Assembly: GCA_001919995.1 (NCBI GenBank)
Contig: MNIY01000035.1
Location: 1-9,717, forward strand
Origin: Ktedonobacter sp. 13_1_20CM_4_53_11
GTDB lineage: Bacteria; Chloroflexota; Ktedonobacteria; Ktedonobacterales; Ktedonobacteraceae
Length of the DNA: 9,717 nt
Reading direction: 5' to 3'
Positions 2,674 to 9,717 of the stretch are shown piece by piece (within the stretch, counting starts at the first letter, position 1; the number at the start of each line of letters is the position of its first letter). A program made the translations under genes and the position numbers. The notes under the pieces were generated by a model that was not told where the DNA came from, made no database searches, and saw only the letters and a list, made by a program, of their open reading frames with translations.

Positions 2674-3579
2674 TCAGGTATAATCCATAGTCACGATCAT
2701 TCCGTCCCTGGCGGCCCTGGTATTGGCAAAAACGCGCCGGGCCGCTCTCTCAACTTGCGATGTATCGACAATTTTTGGACTGAAGTGTGTCAAAATCAAT
2801 GCGTGTGCTCCTGCCTCCTGGGCGATGCTAGCGGATTCTTCGGCGAGCATATGGGAATTGGCGCGCGCCAGTGGCAGGTCTCCAGGATCATCGTACATAC
2901 TTTCGCAAATCATCAGGTCAACATCGTGCGCTAACTCACTGAGAGCTTTTATGGGGCGTGTGTCGGTGATGAAAGCCAGAGAAATTCCGCGTCGTGGAGG
3001 GCCAAGCACCTGTTCAGGTCTAATCACCTGTCCATTGTATTCTATCGCTTCACCATTTTGTAATCTGGACCAGAGTTGTACGGGCAGTCCGAGCGCCCGG
3101 GCCTGTTCCACTTGAAAGGCTGGTTTGCGTCCCAGTTCAACCCGGTAAGCCAGGCAGGGAACTCCATGAGAGGCTGCGATGCAAGAACCCTGCAATCCTC
3201 CAGGCAGTGCAAAATGTTCGCCACTCTTGAGTTCATGAATCTGTACCTGGAAGGGCAACTCTGGGACGATGCGGCGCAATCCCTCGACAACATAAGCGGT
3301 TCCAGGAGGGCCAAATATATGGAGCGGTTCGGTACGGCCAGCATGTGCGACCATGAAGAGTATACCGGGTAATCCTGCCACGTGGTCTGCGTGCATGTGT
3401 GTAAAGCAGATAGCTCCGAGCTGGCGAAAACCCCATCCCAGCGATTTCCAGGGAATCTGTGTTCCCTCGCCACAATCAAAAAGAGTCAAGGTAGATCCAT
3501 TACGCAGCAGTGCGCATGAAAGCCAGCGACCAGGTAAAGGCATCATGCCACAGGTGCCGAGCATACAAATATCGAGCAT
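2674..3579 (-). CDS. rnz: Ribonuclease Z-like metallo-beta-lactamase fold protein
   Basis: This 301-aa cytoplasmic protein belongs to the RNase Z group, which processes tRNA precursor 3' ends or, in side branches, hydrolyses phosphodiesters. From ATG 3579, the metal ligands stand where RNase Z has them: His61, His63, Asp65 and His66 in THMHADH, His138 in ASHGVP, Asp206 in TDTRP and His265 in THFSP. LGPPRRG (192-198) and the final THFSP block are also RNase Z hallmarks, and the length is normal for the family. One oddity is the GP-rich exosite arm, usually close to GVPPGPLYGKLKxGE, which here reads GLPVQLWSRLQNGE (164-177): the PPGP is lost and one residue is missing. An in-frame TTG at 3606 would add nine residues. 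I chose ATG because the family starts with MLDI or similar, although the AGGA at 3592-3595 is a rather distant 12 bases away. Confidence 0.9.
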   Translation of the reverse strand: MLDICMLGTCGMMPLPGRWLSCALLRNGSTLTLFDCGEGTQIPWKSLGWGFRQLGAICFTHMHADHVAGLPGILFMVAHAGRTEPLHIFGPPGTAYVVEGLRRIVPELPFQVQIHELKSGEHFALPGGLQGSCIAASHGVPCLAYRVELGRKPAFQVEQARALGLPVQLWSRLQNGEAIEYNGQVIRPEQVLGPPRRGISLAFITDTRPIKALSELAHDVDLMICESMYDDPGDLPLARANSHMLAEESASIAQEAGAHALILTHFSPKIVDTSQVERAARRVFANTRAARDGMIVTMDYT

Positions 3580-3765
3580 AAATGTGTTGTATCCTTTTGT
3601 TTGCAAATTAGAAATTGTTTTGATAGGCCCAGGCCATTACATTCTATTAACCTAAAAATAGTACAAGCTACTACCCGTGACCTGGCTGCTCTCTTTGGCA
3701 TCTGCTCCAATTAATGTAATTAAACGTATGCAAGCACAGTTTCACTACATCTTTCGTTGTTGCTG

Positions 3766-3798
3766 CTTCATCCGTAGGAGCCTGAAGGCGTTTGCCTT
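3766..3798 (-). ncRNA. Folded sequence past tnpB, candidate part of an omega RNA
   Basis: Within 40 bp of the tnpB stop lie two mutually exclusive stem-loops. One pairs 3766-3773 with 3777-3787, with a 3-nt loop and a 3-nt bulge, giving 8 pairs. The other pairs AAGGC (3785-3789) with GCCTT (3794-3798) across GTTT. TnpB proteins use an RNA derived from the 3' end of tnpB and the element's right end, and alternative folds are common there. On the plus strand the second hairpin followed by TTTT could instead be a weak terminator that shields the element. The pairing is visible; the RNA role is inference. Confidence 0.3.
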
Positions 3799-3805
3799 TT
3801 TGGTC

Positions 3806-4993
3806 TTACCCCGCGTCCACAGCCAAGTTTGCGTCCTCGTCTGAGCCAATACCGTTGACGGCTTGATCAACCAGCCCGATCAAGCGCAGGGCTTCGTACA
3901 AGATGTTCAAGGCCGCGTTGTGGTCACGATCCTGCGAGAATCCATAGGAGGCACACGTGGGGTTCTGGCAAATGAAGATGCGGTCAGAGAGCCCCATCGT
4001 TTCCCATTTCCACCCACAACCATGGCAGGTCTTACTCGATGGAAAGAAACGCCCCACCAGGATGACCTGCCCACCGCGCTGCTGCACCTTGCTCGTCAAG
4101 AGGGTCAAAAGCTTGCCCAGAGCAGCATCAGAGAACGAGCGGGATAAGCGCCTGTTCTTGAGCAGTCCTTTGATGTTGAGGTCTTCAATGCCAATGATCC
4201 CATAGCAGGTGGCCAGTCGTGTCGTCAACTTGTAGAGCACATCATCTCTCATGCAGGTGATCTGATAGTGCAGTCGAGCGACCTGGCGGCGGGCTTTCTC
4301 ACGGTTCTTTGATCCTTTGACTCGCCGATGGAGGCGTTTGTTGGCCTGACGCAGCTTGCCCAGCGCCGTTTTGAGGAAGGCTTGGTTCTCGTATTCCTCT
4401 CCGGTACTCAAGGTTGCCAGTCGGTTGAGGCCGACATCGATGCCTACGGCGTGAGGACGTGGGTGCGCTGGATCAGGTTGCGTCTCTGGAAGTTCGACGG
4501 TTATGCTTGCAAACCACCAATCGGCGGTTTTGGTGATCCGTACGCCTGTCACCTTCCCCTTGAAGCGAAGGGTCTCCGCCATATTCACCCATCCAAGTTT
4601 GGGGACCCACATACGATGATCACCCAGCTCGAATTGATCATTGGCAAGATAGAACGAGGCGCGAGAGCGTTTTTTGCTTTTGAACTTGGGCCGACCTTTC
4701 TTTTTCCCGTTCTTCAGTCCTTCAAAGAAGGCAGTAAACGCCTTTCCCAGATCGAGAAAAGGCTGGTCTGAGGCGTTTTTCGTCACCTCCCAGGTCCAGG
4801 GGAATTGGTCCCTCCTGATCGCATTGAACTGCTTCTTGAGTTTCAATGCCGTCGGTTTCTCGCCTGCTTCATACTGTCGATTCCACTCCGCAAGTGCCCA
4901 GTTCCACACGAAGCGGGCGGTTCCTGCGGCTCTGGCAAAGTAGTTGGCTTGCTCAGGAGTAGGATTCAGTCGGATCTTGTGCGCTTTGATCAT
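3806..4993 (-). CDS. tnpB: TnpB, RNA-guided endonuclease of an IS607-family element
   Basis: TnpB is the ancestor-like relative of Cas12: it cuts DNA matching a guide in the omega RNA and helps the transposon persist. From ATG 4993 the protein has 395 aa, normal for the family. It opens with the typical AHKIRLNPTPEQ and the WNWALAEWNRQYE helix (near 30-42). A RuvC nuclease follows with Asp186 (GIDVGLNR), Glu270 (GIEDLNIKGL) and Asp357 in DRDHNAALNI. A zinc ribbon sits between the last two (Cys323, Cys326, Cys342, Cys347, starting SSKTCHGCG). All catalytic residues are present. The frame stays open upstream to 5167, but ATG 4993 overlaps the tnpA stop in ATGA, which points to translational coupling and is the right start. 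The tail after 375 is acidic. I am confident of family and integrity; activity is inferred. Confidence 0.95.
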   Translation of the reverse strand: MIKAHKIRLNPTPEQANYFARAAGTARFVWNWALAEWNRQYEAGEKPTALKLKKQFNAIRRDQFPWTWEVTKNASDQPFLDLGKAFTAFFEGLKNGKKKGRPKFKSKKRSRASFYLANDQFELGDHRMWVPKLGWVNMAETLRFKGKVTGVRITKTADWWFASITVELPETQPDPAHPRPHAVGIDVGLNRLATLSTGEEYENQAFLKTALGKLRQANKRLHRRVKGSKNREKARRQVARLHYQITCMRDDVLYKLTTRLATCYGIIGIEDLNIKGLLKNRRLSRSFSDAALGKLLTLLTSKVQQRGGQVILVGRFFPSSKTCHGCGWKWETMGLSDRIFICQNPTCASYGFSQDRDHNAALNILYEALRLIGLVDQAVNGIGSDEDANLAVDAG

Positions 4994-5604
4994 CGCTTCC
5001 CATCCTTTCGCAAAGCAGCCGCTCGAATGGCGTTTTTGTGGGAACGCAGGCCAGGAAGTCGAGCAGAAAAAAGCGTGACAATGGCAATCAAATCCCTCAC
5101 CAGTTCTTCTTCTGGTGAGAATGATTCGCCATTCATGACCGTAATAGCGGTTCCATGACGTTCGCAAAAGCGCTCAAACCAGTCGTAGCCGAAGCGGACA
5201 AAGCGGTCCTGGGAGGCGATGATCAGGCGACGAACCTGACCCAGTTCGATTTGCTCAACGACCTCATTGAATCCTTTTCGTTTGTAGTTCAGCGCAGAAC
5301 CGATATCTTCCATCCACTGATCCACTTTGATGTGATGGTCGAGGCAGTAGGCGCGAAGCGCTTCTTTCTGGGTAGCGAGGTCTTTCTTTTGCGAAGGGGA
5401 GGACACGCGAGCATACGCAATCACTTTGCCTTGCTCGGAGGAGATCAACCCACGATACTGCAAATATTGCTCATGTGTGTAGTAGCGCCGATTCGTGGGA
5501 CTGCGGAAGGCATGCAGGATGCCCTGGCGATCCCATTTCTGCAAGGTGTTGACTGACTTTCCAATCAGCTTCCCGAACTGTTTTGGCGAATATGTATGCT
5601 CCAT
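4990..5604 (-). CDS. tnpA: IS607-family serine recombinase TnpA
   Basis: This 204-aa protein is the transposase of the element. It cuts and rejoins DNA through a serine nucleophile. Residues 1-50 form a MerR-like helix-turn-helix (SPKQFGKLIGKSVNTLQKWDRQGIL, then RSPTNRRYYTHEQ). Residues 61-180 form the resolvase domain with YARVSSPSQK, in which Ser68 is the expected nucleophile and Arg66 a partner, followed by the conserved QDRFVRFGYDWFERFCERHG and the FSARLPGLRSHKN end. This DNA-binding-first order is characteristic of IS607, unlike classical resolvases. The length is normal for the family. The C-terminal AALRKDGKR overlaps the tnpB start by four bases. No Shine-Dalgarno lies at a useful distance, and the promoter at 5611-5639 places the predicted transcript start at the ATG. 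Confidence 0.95.
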   Translation of the reverse strand: MEHTYSPKQFGKLIGKSVNTLQKWDRQGILHAFRSPTNRRYYTHEQYLQYRGLISSEQGKVIAYARVSSPSQKKDLATQKEALRAYCLDHHIKVDQWMEDIGSALNYKRKGFNEVVEQIELGQVRRLIIASQDRFVRFGYDWFERFCERHGTAITVMNGESFSPEEELVRDLIAIVTLFSARLPGLRSHKNAIRAAALRKDGKR

Positions 5605-5610
5605 ACATAC

Positions 5611-5639
5611 ATTTTAACCTATCCTCATCTTCTTTTCAA
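5611..5639 (-). promoter_or_regulatory. Promoter of tnpA, predicted leaderless
   Basis: On the minus strand, TTGAAA (5639-5634) and TAAAAT (5616-5611) are separated by exactly 17 bp. Each hexamer matches the sigma-70 consensus at 5 of 6 positions. Six bases separate the -10 from the ATG, so transcription should begin at or within a base of the start codon. Confidence 0.6.
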
Positions 5640-5708
5640 TACTGTTGAAAACTCTCTCTTCCAGAACCCCCAAAACAAAACCGATATCCCATAAGGTAAC
5701 TCGGAGTG

Positions 5709-7016: not shown

Positions 7017-7138
7017 AACAGTTCCCTCAATAATTGTATATTTCACGACCCATCCGCACTCACATCCAGACAATAGAGCGTTCTTCCAGAATAGGTTTGG
7101 CGAAGTTTTGTGTAAAAAAACATATTGTTCGTCATTGC

Positions 7139-7193
7139 CTGAAGACTCCCCCGTCTAAAGAACCCCCCGTTCTTTAGACGGGGGAGTCTTCAG
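7139..7193. repeat. Perfect hairpin with 25-bp arms
   Basis: The arms 7139-7163 and 7169-7193 are perfect reverse complements, separated by five C residues. The central part reads CCCCCGTCTAAAGAAC and its complement. It lies 122 bp past the glycosyltransferase stop. No T run follows on either strand, so it is not a classical terminator. The GTCTnnAGACGGGGGAG character resembles the end palindromes of IS200/IS605-type elements with orphan tnpB genes, and a possible TnpB tail remnant abuts it. It could also be a stand-alone palindromic element. Confidence 0.85.
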
Positions 7194-7361
7194 CGCTACC
7201 AACCTGCCCTGCATGCGCAGGAAGGCTGGCTCTGGTGTGGGTTCGCCCAGACTTTGAGGCCGACGGGCTCCGGCACGGGGCACACCTATGCTCCGGCAAA
7301 GAAATTCGATAGCCGATCTGGAGAAAACAATCGTTTCGCAAAAGGGGGGCCAGGACGCCGA
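7157..7361 (-). pseudogene. Possible decayed 3' end of a second tnpB-type element
   Basis: A minus-strand frame open from about 7361 into the hairpin has a start-less reading rich in Pro, Arg and Gly: it includes CRSIGVPRAGARRPQSLGEP and ends with ALKTPPSKERGVL inside the left palindrome. C-terminal tails of orphan TnpB proteins in IS200/IS605-type elements often have such a low-complexity stretch ending in a LKxExP-like motif and run into the end hairpin. No RuvC or zinc-finger sequence remains. Together with the 7139-7193 palindrome this may be a solo right end. The call rests on resemblance and is weak. Apart from this and the hairpin, I see nothing else in 7017-7382. Confidence 0.28.
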
Positions 7362-7382: not shown

Positions 7383-7595
7383 TTATGTTTGCATGCCCAT
7401 ATCCTTTGTAGACTCATACTGGGAACCCCGTTTGGCCGGCAAGATTGCACCGATGAGCCAGAGGAAGGGAATGAAGATCCCGATGATCCCCAGCAAAACG
7501 TATCCTTTGCGGAAAGTGAGTATACACACAGTGAAAAGAAAGAAAAAGTAGATGCTGAAAAGGAGGGATGCAAGAACCCAATCAAGTACTGTCAT
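7383..7595 (-). CDS. Two-helix small membrane protein
   Basis: This 70-aa protein has two transmembrane helices: about residues 4-27 (LDWVLASLLFSIYFFFLFTV) and 33-52 (LLGIIGIFIPFLWLIGAILP). They are joined by a short FRKGY turn and followed by a polar tail beginning PAKRGSQYES. The pattern 'KGxxxxGIIGxFxPxLWLIGAxLPAxxGS' is one I recall from small hypothetical membrane proteins of Actinobacteria and Chloroflexota, with no assigned function. The start is strongly supported: AGGAG at 7605-7609 lies nine bases upstream. An overlapping frame starting at 7585 is a shadow. A promoter module shared with the divergent radical SAM gene lies upstream (7686-7738), so the protein is probably expressed under the same conditions as that enzyme. 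Confidence 0.78.
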   Translation of the reverse strand: MTVLDWVLASLLFSIYFFFLFTVCILTFRKGYVLLGIIGIFIPFLWLIGAILPAKRGSQYESTKDMGMQT

Positions 7596-7685: not shown

Positions 7686-7738
7686 ACCTCTGCTTTGAGT
7701 ATAGTGCCCTTGAGACAAAAACACATCTTCAGAACACA
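7686..7738 (-). promoter_or_regulatory. Shared promoter module, copy 1 (small membrane protein gene)
   Basis: Read on the minus strand, TTCTGAAGATG (7734-7724) is followed 31 nt after its first base by TATACT (7703-7698), a good -10 hexamer. The 53 bp from 7738 to 7686 align without gaps to 7847-7899 on the plus strand, with 38 identities by my count. The first 21 bp have 20 identities, so the two copies form an inverted pair. It would drive the gene at 7595 with a leader of about 95 nt. Confidence 0.6.
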
Positions 7739-7789
7739 CTATTTTTGTATACCGCAAGAAAGGTGAGAAATATGACATAGACGGTCGCA

Positions 7790-7805
7790 TAGTGTGTTTA
7801 CACTA
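7790..7805. promoter_or_regulatory. TAGTGT/ACACTA dyad midway between the divergent modules
   Basis: TAGTGT (7790-7795) and ACACTA (7800-7805) form a perfect 6-bp inverted repeat with a 4-bp spacer. It lies within about 5 bp of the midpoint between the two inverted promoter modules. A central dyad between divergent promoters is a plausible regulator site, but 6-bp dyads are also frequent by chance. Confidence 0.25.
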
Positions 7806-7846
7806 GTTGTCGGGTATGAAGAAGGTGACGTACATGCGGAAAATGA

Positions 7847-7899
7847 TGTGTTCTGAGGATGTGTTTTCGCTCCAAAGCACGTACACTTGAGACAGAGGT
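7847..7899 (+). promoter_or_regulatory. Shared promoter module, copy 2 (radical SAM gene)
   Basis: TTCTGAGGATG (7851-7861) is followed exactly 31 nt from its first base by TACACT (7882-7887). The same spacing occurs at 7686-7738 (minus) and 9590-9626 (plus). TACACT is a reasonable -10. The conserved block covers the -35 position and sequence upstream of it, where no TTGACA-like hexamer is seen, which suggests an activator site or an alternative sigma factor. Transcription would start near 7894, about 55 nt before ATG 7949. Confidence 0.6.
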
Positions 7900-7948
7900 C
7901 CTGTGTTTTCTGTTCGTAGCAGAGGAAGGGAGCCAGAGAGCGAACTAT

Positions 7949-9316
7949 ATGCAACCATCGAAGATCATACCCCTGATACCAGCAAACGCCACACCGGCAA
8001 CCATACCGGGCTCACCTGCCGCATGGCCCAGGAATGCCCCCACCTCTTTTCATGTGTTGGGCAAGCCTTCCGGGGCGACCTGCAACCTTGATTGCACGTA
8101 TTGCTTTTTCCTGTCGAAGGAGAAGCTCTATCCCGACAGCCGCTTTCGCATGACAGATGACCTGCTCGAAGCCTACATCCACCAGATGATCGAATCGCAG
8201 CGCGGACCTGAAGTGACCATTGCCTGGCAGGGTGGTGAACCGACCCTGATGGGGCTCGACTTTTACAAGCGTTCAATAGAGTATGAAAAGAAATACGCAC
8301 GTCCCGGCACCACGATTCAGCATACGATGCAGACAAACGGCATCCTGTTGAACGATGCCTGGTGCGAGTTTTTCCGCGAACACGATTTTTTGATCGGGTT
8401 GAGTCTGGATGGTCCACAGGAGATGCACGATACCTACCGCGTGGATAAAGGCGGCGCACCGACCTTCCACAAGGTAATGCGTGCTGCACGGCTGTTGCAG
8501 CAGCACCGGGTGGAGTTCAACGTTTTGACGACGGTCAACGCCGCCAACGCCGATCACCCGCTCGAGGTGTATCGCTTTTTACGCGACGAGGTCGGCACCC
8601 AGTTCATGCAGTTCATCCCCATTGTTGAACGCATCAACGAGAACGGGGAGATAGGCTTTCAGGATGGCAATCAGGTCAGCGAGCGTTCCGTGACGGCAGA
8701 GCAGTGGGGCACCTTTCTCATCGCCATTTTTAATGAATGGATTCGGCGCGATGTGGGCACGGTGTTCGTGCAGATGTTCGACGCGGCCCTGGCTTCCTGG
8801 GTGGGTGTTCCGCCCGCGCTGTGTATCTTTTCTGAGACCTGCGGCAATGCGCTGGCGCTAGAGCACAACGGAGACCTCTACTCATGCGATCACTTTGTGG
8901 AACCGAAGTATCTGCTCGGCAACATTAAACAGAAGCATATGATAGAACTGGTGGCCTCTGACCGGCAGCGGCAGTTTGGCCTGCACAAGCGTGATAGCCT
9001 GCCAAAGTACTGCCGTGAGTGCGAGGTGCGTTTCGCCTGCCACGGCGAGTGTCCCAAGAACCGCTTCATCGAGACGCCCGATGGGGAGCCCGGACTGAAT
9101 TACCTGTGTGCGGGCTACAAGGCCTTCTTCAAACATATCGATCGGCCGATGCGGCTGATGACCGAGCTCTTGCGCCGCGACCGTGCCCCGGCAGAGGTGA
9201 TGCTGATCCTGGCAGCTGAAGAGGCGCAGGTGCAAAAAGCGTTCGCCAGGGCCGGGCGAAACGATCCGTGCCCATGTGGCAGTGGACGCAAATTCAAGCA
9301 CTGCCATGGGAGGTAA
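7949..9316 (+). CDS. anSME-like radical SAM/SPASM protein with C-terminal SEC-C motif
   Basis: This is a radical SAM enzyme of the anaerobic sulfatase-maturating type. Studied members oxidise a Cys or Ser in a sulfatase to formylglycine, without oxygen, in the cytoplasm. From ATG 7949 it has 455 aa. The SAM cluster motif is CNLDCTYC (Cys45, 49, 52), followed by WQGGEPTL (93-100) and LSLDGP (151-156). The SPASM cysteines Cys292, 298, 313, 355, 358, 364, 368 and 387 are spaced almost as in the Clostridium perfringens enzyme, with Asp314 directly after Cys313 as the expected catalytic base. A SEC-C zinc motif ends the protein (RNDPCPCGSGRKFKHC; Cys441, 443, 452). The frame is open up to ATG 7859, but that codon precedes the proposed transcript start. 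GAGAG at 7936-7940, eight bases away, supports 7949. No sulfatase is visible here, so the substrate is unknown. Confidence 0.9.
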   Translation: MQPSKIIPLIPANATPATIPGSPAAWPRNAPTSFHVLGKPSGATCNLDCTYCFFLSKEKLYPDSRFRMTDDLLEAYIHQMIESQRGPEVTIAWQGGEPTLMGLDFYKRSIEYEKKYARPGTTIQHTMQTNGILLNDAWCEFFREHDFLIGLSLDGPQEMHDTYRVDKGGAPTFHKVMRAARLLQQHRVEFNVLTTVNAANADHPLEVYRFLRDEVGTQFMQFIPIVERINENGEIGFQDGNQVSERSVTAEQWGTFLIAIFNEWIRRDVGTVFVQMFDAALASWVGVPPALCIFSETCGNALALEHNGDLYSCDHFVEPKYLLGNIKQKHMIELVASDRQRQFGLHKRDSLPKYCRECEVRFACHGECPKNRFIETPDGEPGLNYLCAGYKAFFKHIDRPMRLMTELLRRDRAPAEVMLILAAEEAQVQKAFARAGRNDPCPCGSGRKFKHCHGR

Positions 9317-9589
9317 GGAGCAGCAGCGTTCGCCATCTCGTTTCGGCGTCCTAAGGATACCTCGTCCACGAAATCTGGAGCCTGACATGCATGCTATTGT
9401 TGCCCCGTAAGTCTATGACCGGAACCCTTCCAGTTGACATTCTGCGTGGATGGTTTCTGCGTGGCTGAAAAAGCGTGGAGAACTAGCTTGTTCCGATTAC
9501 ACTGCTATCCGTATGTAGTGCAAATACGCTATATCACCTCGAACAGGGCATGTTTCAGCCTGTGTCCCGAGAGGCCCAAAAATAGCGGG
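9317..9589. other. Non-coding stretch with a short direct repeat
   Basis: I see no convincing gene, tRNA or terminator in this stretch after the radical SAM gene. The only local structure is a direct repeat of TTCTGCGTGG(A/C)TG at 9440-9452 and 9455-9467, with a period of 15 bp, which begins one base after a TTGACA (9434-9439) that lacks a -10 partner. Very short open frames such as that at 9388 stop within a few codons. Confidence 0.4.
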
Positions 9590-9626
9590 TTCTGAGGATG
9601 CGCGATCACTATTGGATGAGTACACT
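9590..9626 (+). promoter_or_regulatory. Shared promoter module, copy 3 (gene at the right edge)
   Basis: TTCTGAGGATG (9590-9600) is followed exactly 31 nt from its first base by TACACT (9621-9626). The base before TACACT is also G, as in copy 2 (GTACACT), and ACAG follows in both copies within the first bases of the presumed transcript (7892 and 9631). The intervening sequence is not conserved, so the match is confined to the two boxes and their spacing. It would drive the gene at 9707 with a leader of about 75 nt. Confidence 0.55.
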
Positions 9627-9641
9627 AATGACAGTGATGGC

Positions 9642-9680: not shown

Positions 9681-9706
9681 CTGTATAAGATTAGGAGGTA
9701 TTGATC

Positions 9707-9717
9707 ATGGCTTGTCT
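9707..9717 (+). CDS. Start of an unknown gene cut by the window edge
   Basis: Only the first codons (Met-Ala-Cys-Leu, the last incomplete but unambiguous) are inside the window. The start is supported by a full AGGAGG at 9693-9698 eight bases upstream, and by an apparent promoter and leader hairpin before it. The product cannot be named. Sharing a promoter module with the anSME-like gene makes a functional partner possible. Confidence 0.65.

Follow-up and report, generated by a model that had tools for sequence, protein, structure and literature searches.

A long promoter element shared by clustered genes in Ktedonobacteraceae and a MalT-type protein as its candidate activator

Results and discussion

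Three copies of the element at one end of the window

The window—the whole 9,717-nt stretch of DNA analysed here—contains exactly three matches to the pattern TTCTGARGATG-N20-TAYACT, against a mean of 0.00 in 200 dinucleotide shuffles. They lie where an earlier note on this DNA had placed them (7734-7698 on the minus strand, 7851-7887 and 9590-9626 on the plus strand), with an identical 31-nt offset between the two boxes in all copies, and each precedes a different gene in that gene's direction. The sites and the genes behind them are:

7693..7748, minus strand: site 1; upstream block AAAAATAGTGTG at 7746-7735, TTCTGAAGATG at 7734-7724, -10 TATACT at 7703-7698
7383..7595, minus strand: gene for a 70-aa hydrophobic protein behind site 1; ATG at 7595, 102 nt past the -10
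7837..7892, plus strand: site 2, divergent from site 1; TTCTGAGGATG at 7851-7861, -10 TACACT at 7882-7887
7949..9316, plus strand: gene behind site 2 for an anSME-like radical SAM/SPASM enzyme with a C-terminal SEC-C motif (TIGR03942; Radical_SAM, SPASM, SEC-C)
9576..9631, plus strand: site 3; TTCTGAGGATG at 9590-9600, -10 TACACT at 9621-9626, spacer diverged
9707..9717, plus strand: start of the gene for a 98-aa hydrophobic protein behind site 3, truncated where the window ends, with AGGAGG at 9693-9698

The anSME-like identity proposed in the earlier note for the radical SAM enzyme was confirmed by a TIGR03942 score of 513.7 bits (cut-off 349.45). We preferred its start at 7949, 61 nt past the -10 of site 2, over the one at 7859 because the latter falls within the motif. 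The gene start behind site 3 lies 80 nt past the -10, and its complete frame runs from position 4391 of contig C17 in the nearest genome (G001), three long blocks of which are 98.3-99.1% identical to the window. No match was found for the 70-aa protein in Pfam or NCBIfam, nor for the 98-aa protein in Pfam; to judge from their amino acid sequences, both are probably membrane proteins.

Compared on their G001 copies (the 37-nt sequences are those of the window), the three sites agree at 24-25 of the 30 positions of an extended core, and their flanks at 22-23 of 80 positions, which is near chance. Spacer identity amounts to 11/20 between sites 1 and 2 and falls to 4/20 and 6/20 against site 3—the divergence of the third copy that had been pointed out before. 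The model described below scores sites 1, 2 and 3, all members of its training set, at 53.9, 50.7 and 43.7 bits, respectively, and in the rest of the window no further match is better than E 2.6. All three sites fall within its last 2.1 kb, where the window shows the edge of a site cluster.

The window has some further features. A ribonuclease Z gene outside the cluster occupies positions 2677-3579 on the minus strand (NCBIfam NF000801, 328 bits; cut-off 252). The segment at 3704-5652 (~1949 bp), absent at the same place in G001, carries genes for a serine recombinase (Resolvase and MerR HTH, 4993-5604, minus strand) and a TnpB-type protein (3809-5167, minus strand), a pair that we take to be IS607-like. 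Another 119 bp (7018-7136) do not align to G001; after them, at 7141-7200, GAAGACTCCCCCGTCTAAAGAAC and its complement form a long inverted repeat that may be a terminator or the end of an insertion sequence.

Architecture and position of the full element

The aligned sites revealed more than the two boxes first described: a conserved block, AAAAATAGYGYG, stands immediately 5′ of TTCTGARGATG, and the full-length element reads AAAAATAGYGYGTTCTGARGATGTRTTTTCG-N12-TAyACT. A scan of the kind that the earlier note had called for, run on G001, returned seven exact matches and none for the reversed control, and TTCTGARGATG alone gave 15 matches against 3. The three sites of the window belong to a much larger, clustered set. 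We numbered the element by setting TAyACT as -12 to -7, with the start site estimated from this -10. On this scale, the information profile of 42 sites (23 from G001, 4 from G002 and 15 from G012) peaks at -54 to -33 (AAAATAGYGYGTTCTGARGATG), followed by a T-rich stretch at -30 to -25 and then by T-12, A-11 and T-7, and the conserved block measures ~30 bp and is centred near -40. Sigma-A promoters keep T-12, A-11 and T-7 in the -10, and class II activator promoters combine a -10 of this type with a box that covers and replaces the -35. Both the profile of 42 sites and the alignment of 33 display that layout, with a box at a fixed distance overlapping the -35 and a sigma-A-like -10. We claim no internal symmetry for the box: the direct repeat YGYRTTYT, offset by 13 nt, has p 0.06 (p 0.26 when matching is scored within sites) and the dyad p 0.23, none of them significant.

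Among the 42 sites, mean pairwise identity reaches 0.74-0.75 in the core bins and drops to 0.25-0.28 beyond ~-63 to +6. The sites avoid long reading frames: none lies inside an ORF of at least 250 aa (55% of the DNA), two lie inside ORFs of at least 180 aa (64%) and three inside ORFs of at least 120 aa (73%). An ORF of at least 60 aa with a ribosome site follows within 260 nt for 31 of the 42 sites, compared with 31% of 2000 random positions, so the element is commoner upstream of genes than chance would have it; the median distance from site to start is 90 nt. The other 11 sites are without such an ORF, some of them at contig edges or decayed. Seven between-genome comparisons covering six genes—those for the radical SAM enzyme, a 136-aa protein, a kinase, an 81-aa protein, the ECF sigma factor (against two G012 copies) and an AI-2E permease, the last pair being only 38% identical and perhaps not orthologous—found 20-27 of 30 core positions kept, against 15-28 of 80 in the flanks. 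We are highly confident that the element is a real promoter element. With flanks at background identity, sites before genes and a core that is kept, the view that it is functional and not the product of duplication is strongly supported. One copy, at L177 637-681, has a good upstream box and no -10 (ACGTCA), and is apparently a decayed or rearranged site.

Distribution among genomes and clustering

A first, sequence-only model took in 12 of 14 motif-like sites, omitting L127 and L134; G012 contributed one of the 12. Across 41 relatives at E 0.5, it found 24 matches in G001, 6 in G002 and 14 in G012; a further 15 genomes gave weak matches, which were counted as noise (E 0.004 for the best, in G016, and 0.036 or worse for the rest). 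The 14 matches in G012 lay near the ends of two contigs and, with a single training site from that genome, represent a partly independent discovery. A second model, built on 33 of the 42 sites, found 26 sites in G001, 6 in G002 and 16 in G012 (48 matches), a G012 count that may miss weak sites because the models were trained mostly on G001. At E 0.01 it found no site elsewhere in the family (the remaining 26 of 29 genomes), and none elsewhere in the class (the remaining 44 of 47 genomes) when filters were tightened and E was set to 1e-4.

Within the three genomes, the sites are tightly grouped. In G012 (~40 contigs), the initial 15 kb of contig C6 and the initial 11 kb of C29 hold all 16, and both contigs break in near-identical ECF sigma factor genes; the 26 in G001 (~460 contigs; 3.2 Mb, 76% complete) occupy nine contigs of 78 kb in all; and four of the six in G002 (87% complete, fragmented) share a single 8.6-kb contig. 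This clustering rules out a dispersed regulon. The small regulon not obvious from gene order that had been proposed gives way to some 26 sites in G001 that are physically clustered. G001 and G002 belong to one genus, as does G003 (84% complete), which has neither the motif nor a member of the regulator clade discussed below.

Outside these three genomes, the exact pattern occurs once among the remaining 38 of the 41 relatives, on contig C55 of G016 (17.9 bits, E 0.00014 in a small search set). We treated this match as chance, with some doubt, rather than as evidence of a fourth motif genome: its upstream block is poor and the LAL protein of G016 falls outside the clade. Scanning genome contigs with spacers of 18-22 nt returned at least 118 stretches, mostly from unrelated phyla, which we read as background. 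Orthologues of the glycogen-debranching-like gene (64-72% identical) in seven motif-free genomes had no site in the loci examined (best 5.4 bits), which makes a weak control, as no site was found upstream of the G001 copy (C3:2401) on its contig either.

A MalT-type regulator as the candidate activator

Three kinds of DNA-binding regulator occur with the sites: a MalT-type LAL protein of the LuxR group, an ECF sigma factor and a response regulator. The first is encoded in G001 as follows:

C23:1361-4477: MalT-type LAL LuxR regulator with MalT-like TPR and GerE domains

Its ATPase part aligns to the solved MalT chain 8bob_C, and against the NCBIfam MalT model the protein scores 388.9, under the cut-off of 537. 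LAL regulators are numerous in the genomes of this group, and the proteins from motif genomes stand apart: scores were 2300 bits in G001, 1143 in G002 and 1020 and 1009 for two G012 copies, and the best LAL in the other 44 of 47 genomes reached 466 bits, with at most 17 candidates scored per genome. In a tree of 22 LAL proteins from 21 genomes (two loci from G012 and the single best locus from each of the 20 others), these four split off with 100/100 support, and G001, G002 and G012 were the only genomes of the 21 in the clade. A LAL fragment in G016 (C6, cut by the contig end), whose ATPase part gives 46.1% against 46.5% for the G012 island copy, falls outside it. Among the matches listed for the regulator, 3 of 120 relatives were named as coming from a Ktedonobacteraceae bacterium, which is our basis for the family assignment; homologues 61-95% identical to the LAL protein occur on metagenome contigs.

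The LAL gene is encoded together with the sites. In G012 a copy lies between them, inside the cluster, where a site at C6:5012-5058 is followed by a lipoprotein-like gene and then by the LAL gene; in G001 it lies on a small contig with a site at C23:5491-5541 (29 bits, not a training site) ~1 kb upstream. Other ORFs stand between site and LAL gene in both genomes. No site was detected on the G002 LAL contig, where the frame is cut by the contig end and lacks ~140 N-terminal residues, its HTH being out of view. The two G012 copies are 70-79% identical to the G001 protein in the HTH and 50-54% over the whole length, which is weak evidence for a conserved target because other LAL proteins also keep the HTH better than the whole (40-51% versus 31-41%). 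Co-occurrence of the motif with the LAL clade across 47 genomes is likewise no proof of a link, since the cluster may be inherited as a block; it is confounded by such inheritance and by G001 and G002 being one genus.

On balance, we favour, at a probability of roughly 0.53, a class II activator-dependent promoter that co-regulates the clustered genes, with the MalT-type LAL protein as the most likely activator; that this protein reads the box is, on the sequence evidence, about as probable. Two options had been offered at the outset, an activator site or an unusual sigma factor. The activator is favoured and the sigma option less so, because the -10 is sigma-A-like, the block of ~30 bp lies near -40, the LAL clade co-occurs with the motif and no close ECF relative was found in G002. 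The activator, probably a dimer, would bind the 23-30 bp box AAAAATAGYGYGTTCTGARGATGTRTTTTCG, which would span ~-55 to -25 and stand in for a consensus -35; TAyACT would then serve as a sigma-A-like -10, with transcription presumably starting ~7 nt after it. As one box precedes about two dozen genes or operons that cluster in a few related genomes, these would be switched on together, and the site some way upstream of the LAL gene in G001 and G012 suggests positive autoregulation.

Alternative readings of the element

The main rival to the LAL activator is the ECF sigma factor encoded in the cluster itself (210 aa, C211:9546-10178 of G001), of which the element would be the promoter, with an unusually long -35 block and an autoregulated sigma gene. 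A site does precede the ECF gene, which has regions 2 and 4, in G001 and in the two G012 copies, and GATGTR lies at ~-36, 18 nt from the -10. This gap is near the ECF spacing, and autoregulation is typical of such factors. We nonetheless consider this reading unlikely: the conserved block of 30 bp is much longer than the footprint of sigma region 4, TAyACT with T-12, A-11 and T-7 is sigma-A-like and not of the ECF type, and G002 has strong sites and yielded no close ECF relative, in a genome that is fragmented and 87% complete. The short -35 element and ECF-type -10 that mark an ECF regulon are not what the sites display. Paralogous ECF factors were also considered as owners of the motif and rejected; viewed by eye, the upstream regions at 19 loci (L217-L235) mostly carry another conserved stretch, around CTTAGAG..CAGCAGAGCTTAT, unrelated to the motif, with L232 lacking it. 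The sigma gene behind a site is at L179 9546-10178, and the two near-identical G012 copies stand at contig ends (L182 1-185; L183 1-185; the ends of L269 and L270), where the assembly broke.

Rather improbable, too, is that the box is bound by another GerE/LuxR-type or unrecognised DNA-binding protein, such as the response regulator at C139:9002-9643 of G001, the kinase-NB-ARC-LuxR protein of G012 or a protein encoded on missing contigs. The response regulator gene has an upstream site, with an 81-aa ORF in between, and the G001 assembly is only 76% complete. However, all 47 genomes have homologues of the response regulator, and the full kinase-LuxR architecture was confined to G012 among 11 loci compared. 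Genomes free of the motif hold the closest relatives of the response regulator (68% in G006), and for this reason we rejected it as owner of the motif.

We regard it as very improbable that the copies are ends of mobile repeats or remnants of segmental duplications rather than promoters. A few do share longer flanks—two pairs have an upstream identity of 0.59-0.61, and an AI-2E pair lies on C14 and C139—and insertion-sequence genes are present in the window, but over the 42 sites identity drops to background outside the element instead of extending to common ends, and the sites stand before unrelated genes and avoid long ORFs. That the three boxes are alike by chance is hardly credible. Only the short length of each box speaks for it, whereas shuffles predict none and, of the 29 family genomes, just these three yielded model matches at E 0.01, 48 in all.

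Comparison with known systems

For the activator-dependent promoter that we favour, the closest published case found is MRLGR of Actinoplanes SE50/110. There, deletion and overexpression were used to test a MalT-type protein that activates one region of 51 genes through a box which overlaps the -35 of 17 promoters and whose 3′ end lies 34.4 nt from the start (PMC7567727). Seen against this account, both systems have a MalT-type LuxR regulator encoded inside a clustered, rearranged region and one box overlapping the -35 of many promoters; the box would end at -33 in our case, compared with ~34 nt from the start in Actinoplanes, and GGATG is common to both boxes. In contrast to the Actinoplanes palindrome TCATCC-N5-GGATGA, the present box is longer and asymmetric (AAAAATAGYGYGTTCTGARGATG), with an A-rich upstream block and without the TCATCC half. 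Actinoplanes probably belongs to a different phylum, the role of its regulator is experimental whereas that of the LAL protein is predicted from sequence, and its annotated genes (mostly amino acid metabolism in the parts available) have no clear overlap with ours when compared by name. E. coli MalT, which controls maltose genes, shares the architecture of the LAL protein (ATPase, MalT-like TPR and GerE HTH), and its boxes are given in the same source as GGGGA(T/G)GAGG repeats (PMC7567727). The consensus has GARGATG only, with neither GGGGAKGAGG repeats nor TCATCC-N5-GGATGA; by analogy, the layout may work like the Actinoplanes system, while the element falls outside the MalT-box family.

Two broader classes invite comparison. 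LuxR/NarL-type class II activators, for which the lux box is centred near -42.5, also combine a GerE HTH with a box of ~20-30 bp overlapping the -35 and a sigma-70 type -10; unlike theirs, our box has no significant dyad. Autoregulated ECF regulons resemble the present set in having an ECF gene behind its own site and a fixed box spacing, and differ in that here the block is too long, the -10 is not ECF-like and no close ECF relative was found in G002.

A search of the open-access literature on promoters and regulons of Ktedonobacteria or Chloroflexi returned no title or abstract opening concerned with a Ktedonobacteria regulon or promoter motif, and no LAL target in this group is described as far as such titles and openings show. 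For an uncultured group rich in LAL regulators, the element provides a sequence handle on genes regulated together and, with the LAL protein, names a testable regulator-box pair. It would also place a second large region, probably from a phylum other than that of Actinoplanes, under a single MalT-like protein.

Genes behind the sites and their likely role

The genes behind or near the sites encode AI-2E permeases, a PLD-type cardiolipin-synthase-like protein, BrkB, DUF1269 and LURP-one-related proteins, a P450 with a ferredoxin-reductase-like protein, an NDH-2-like oxidoreductase, a GMC oxidoreductase, SCP2 with a glycogen-debranching-like enzyme, a GH63/MGH1-like enzyme, an ion channel, a DUF2252 protein and a DUF6325 protein that scored just below the family cut-off. 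Regulatory genes with sites include those for the ECF sigma factor and a Ser/Thr kinase, and small hydrophobic proteins complete the set. The radical SAM enzyme has a homologue in G002 (84-85% identical) that also carries an upstream site. Taken together, the products suggest an envelope, carbohydrate and redox stress programme.

A more tentative extension, against which we would put the odds, is that the island forms one circuit. The LAL activator, the ECF sigma factor and the Ser/Thr kinase, each with an upstream box, would act through a new, long and asymmetric LAL box to drive about two dozen operons of the cluster; the box would be kept or re-evolved before genes reshuffled between genera, and the island might therefore evolve as a regulatory unit and not as operons.

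A truncated frame accompanies one of the sites. At L180 (~4106-4192), a 44-aa ORF stands directly behind the site, is 90% identical over 29 aa to the SCP2 N-terminus and ends early, ahead of the NDH-2-like gene.
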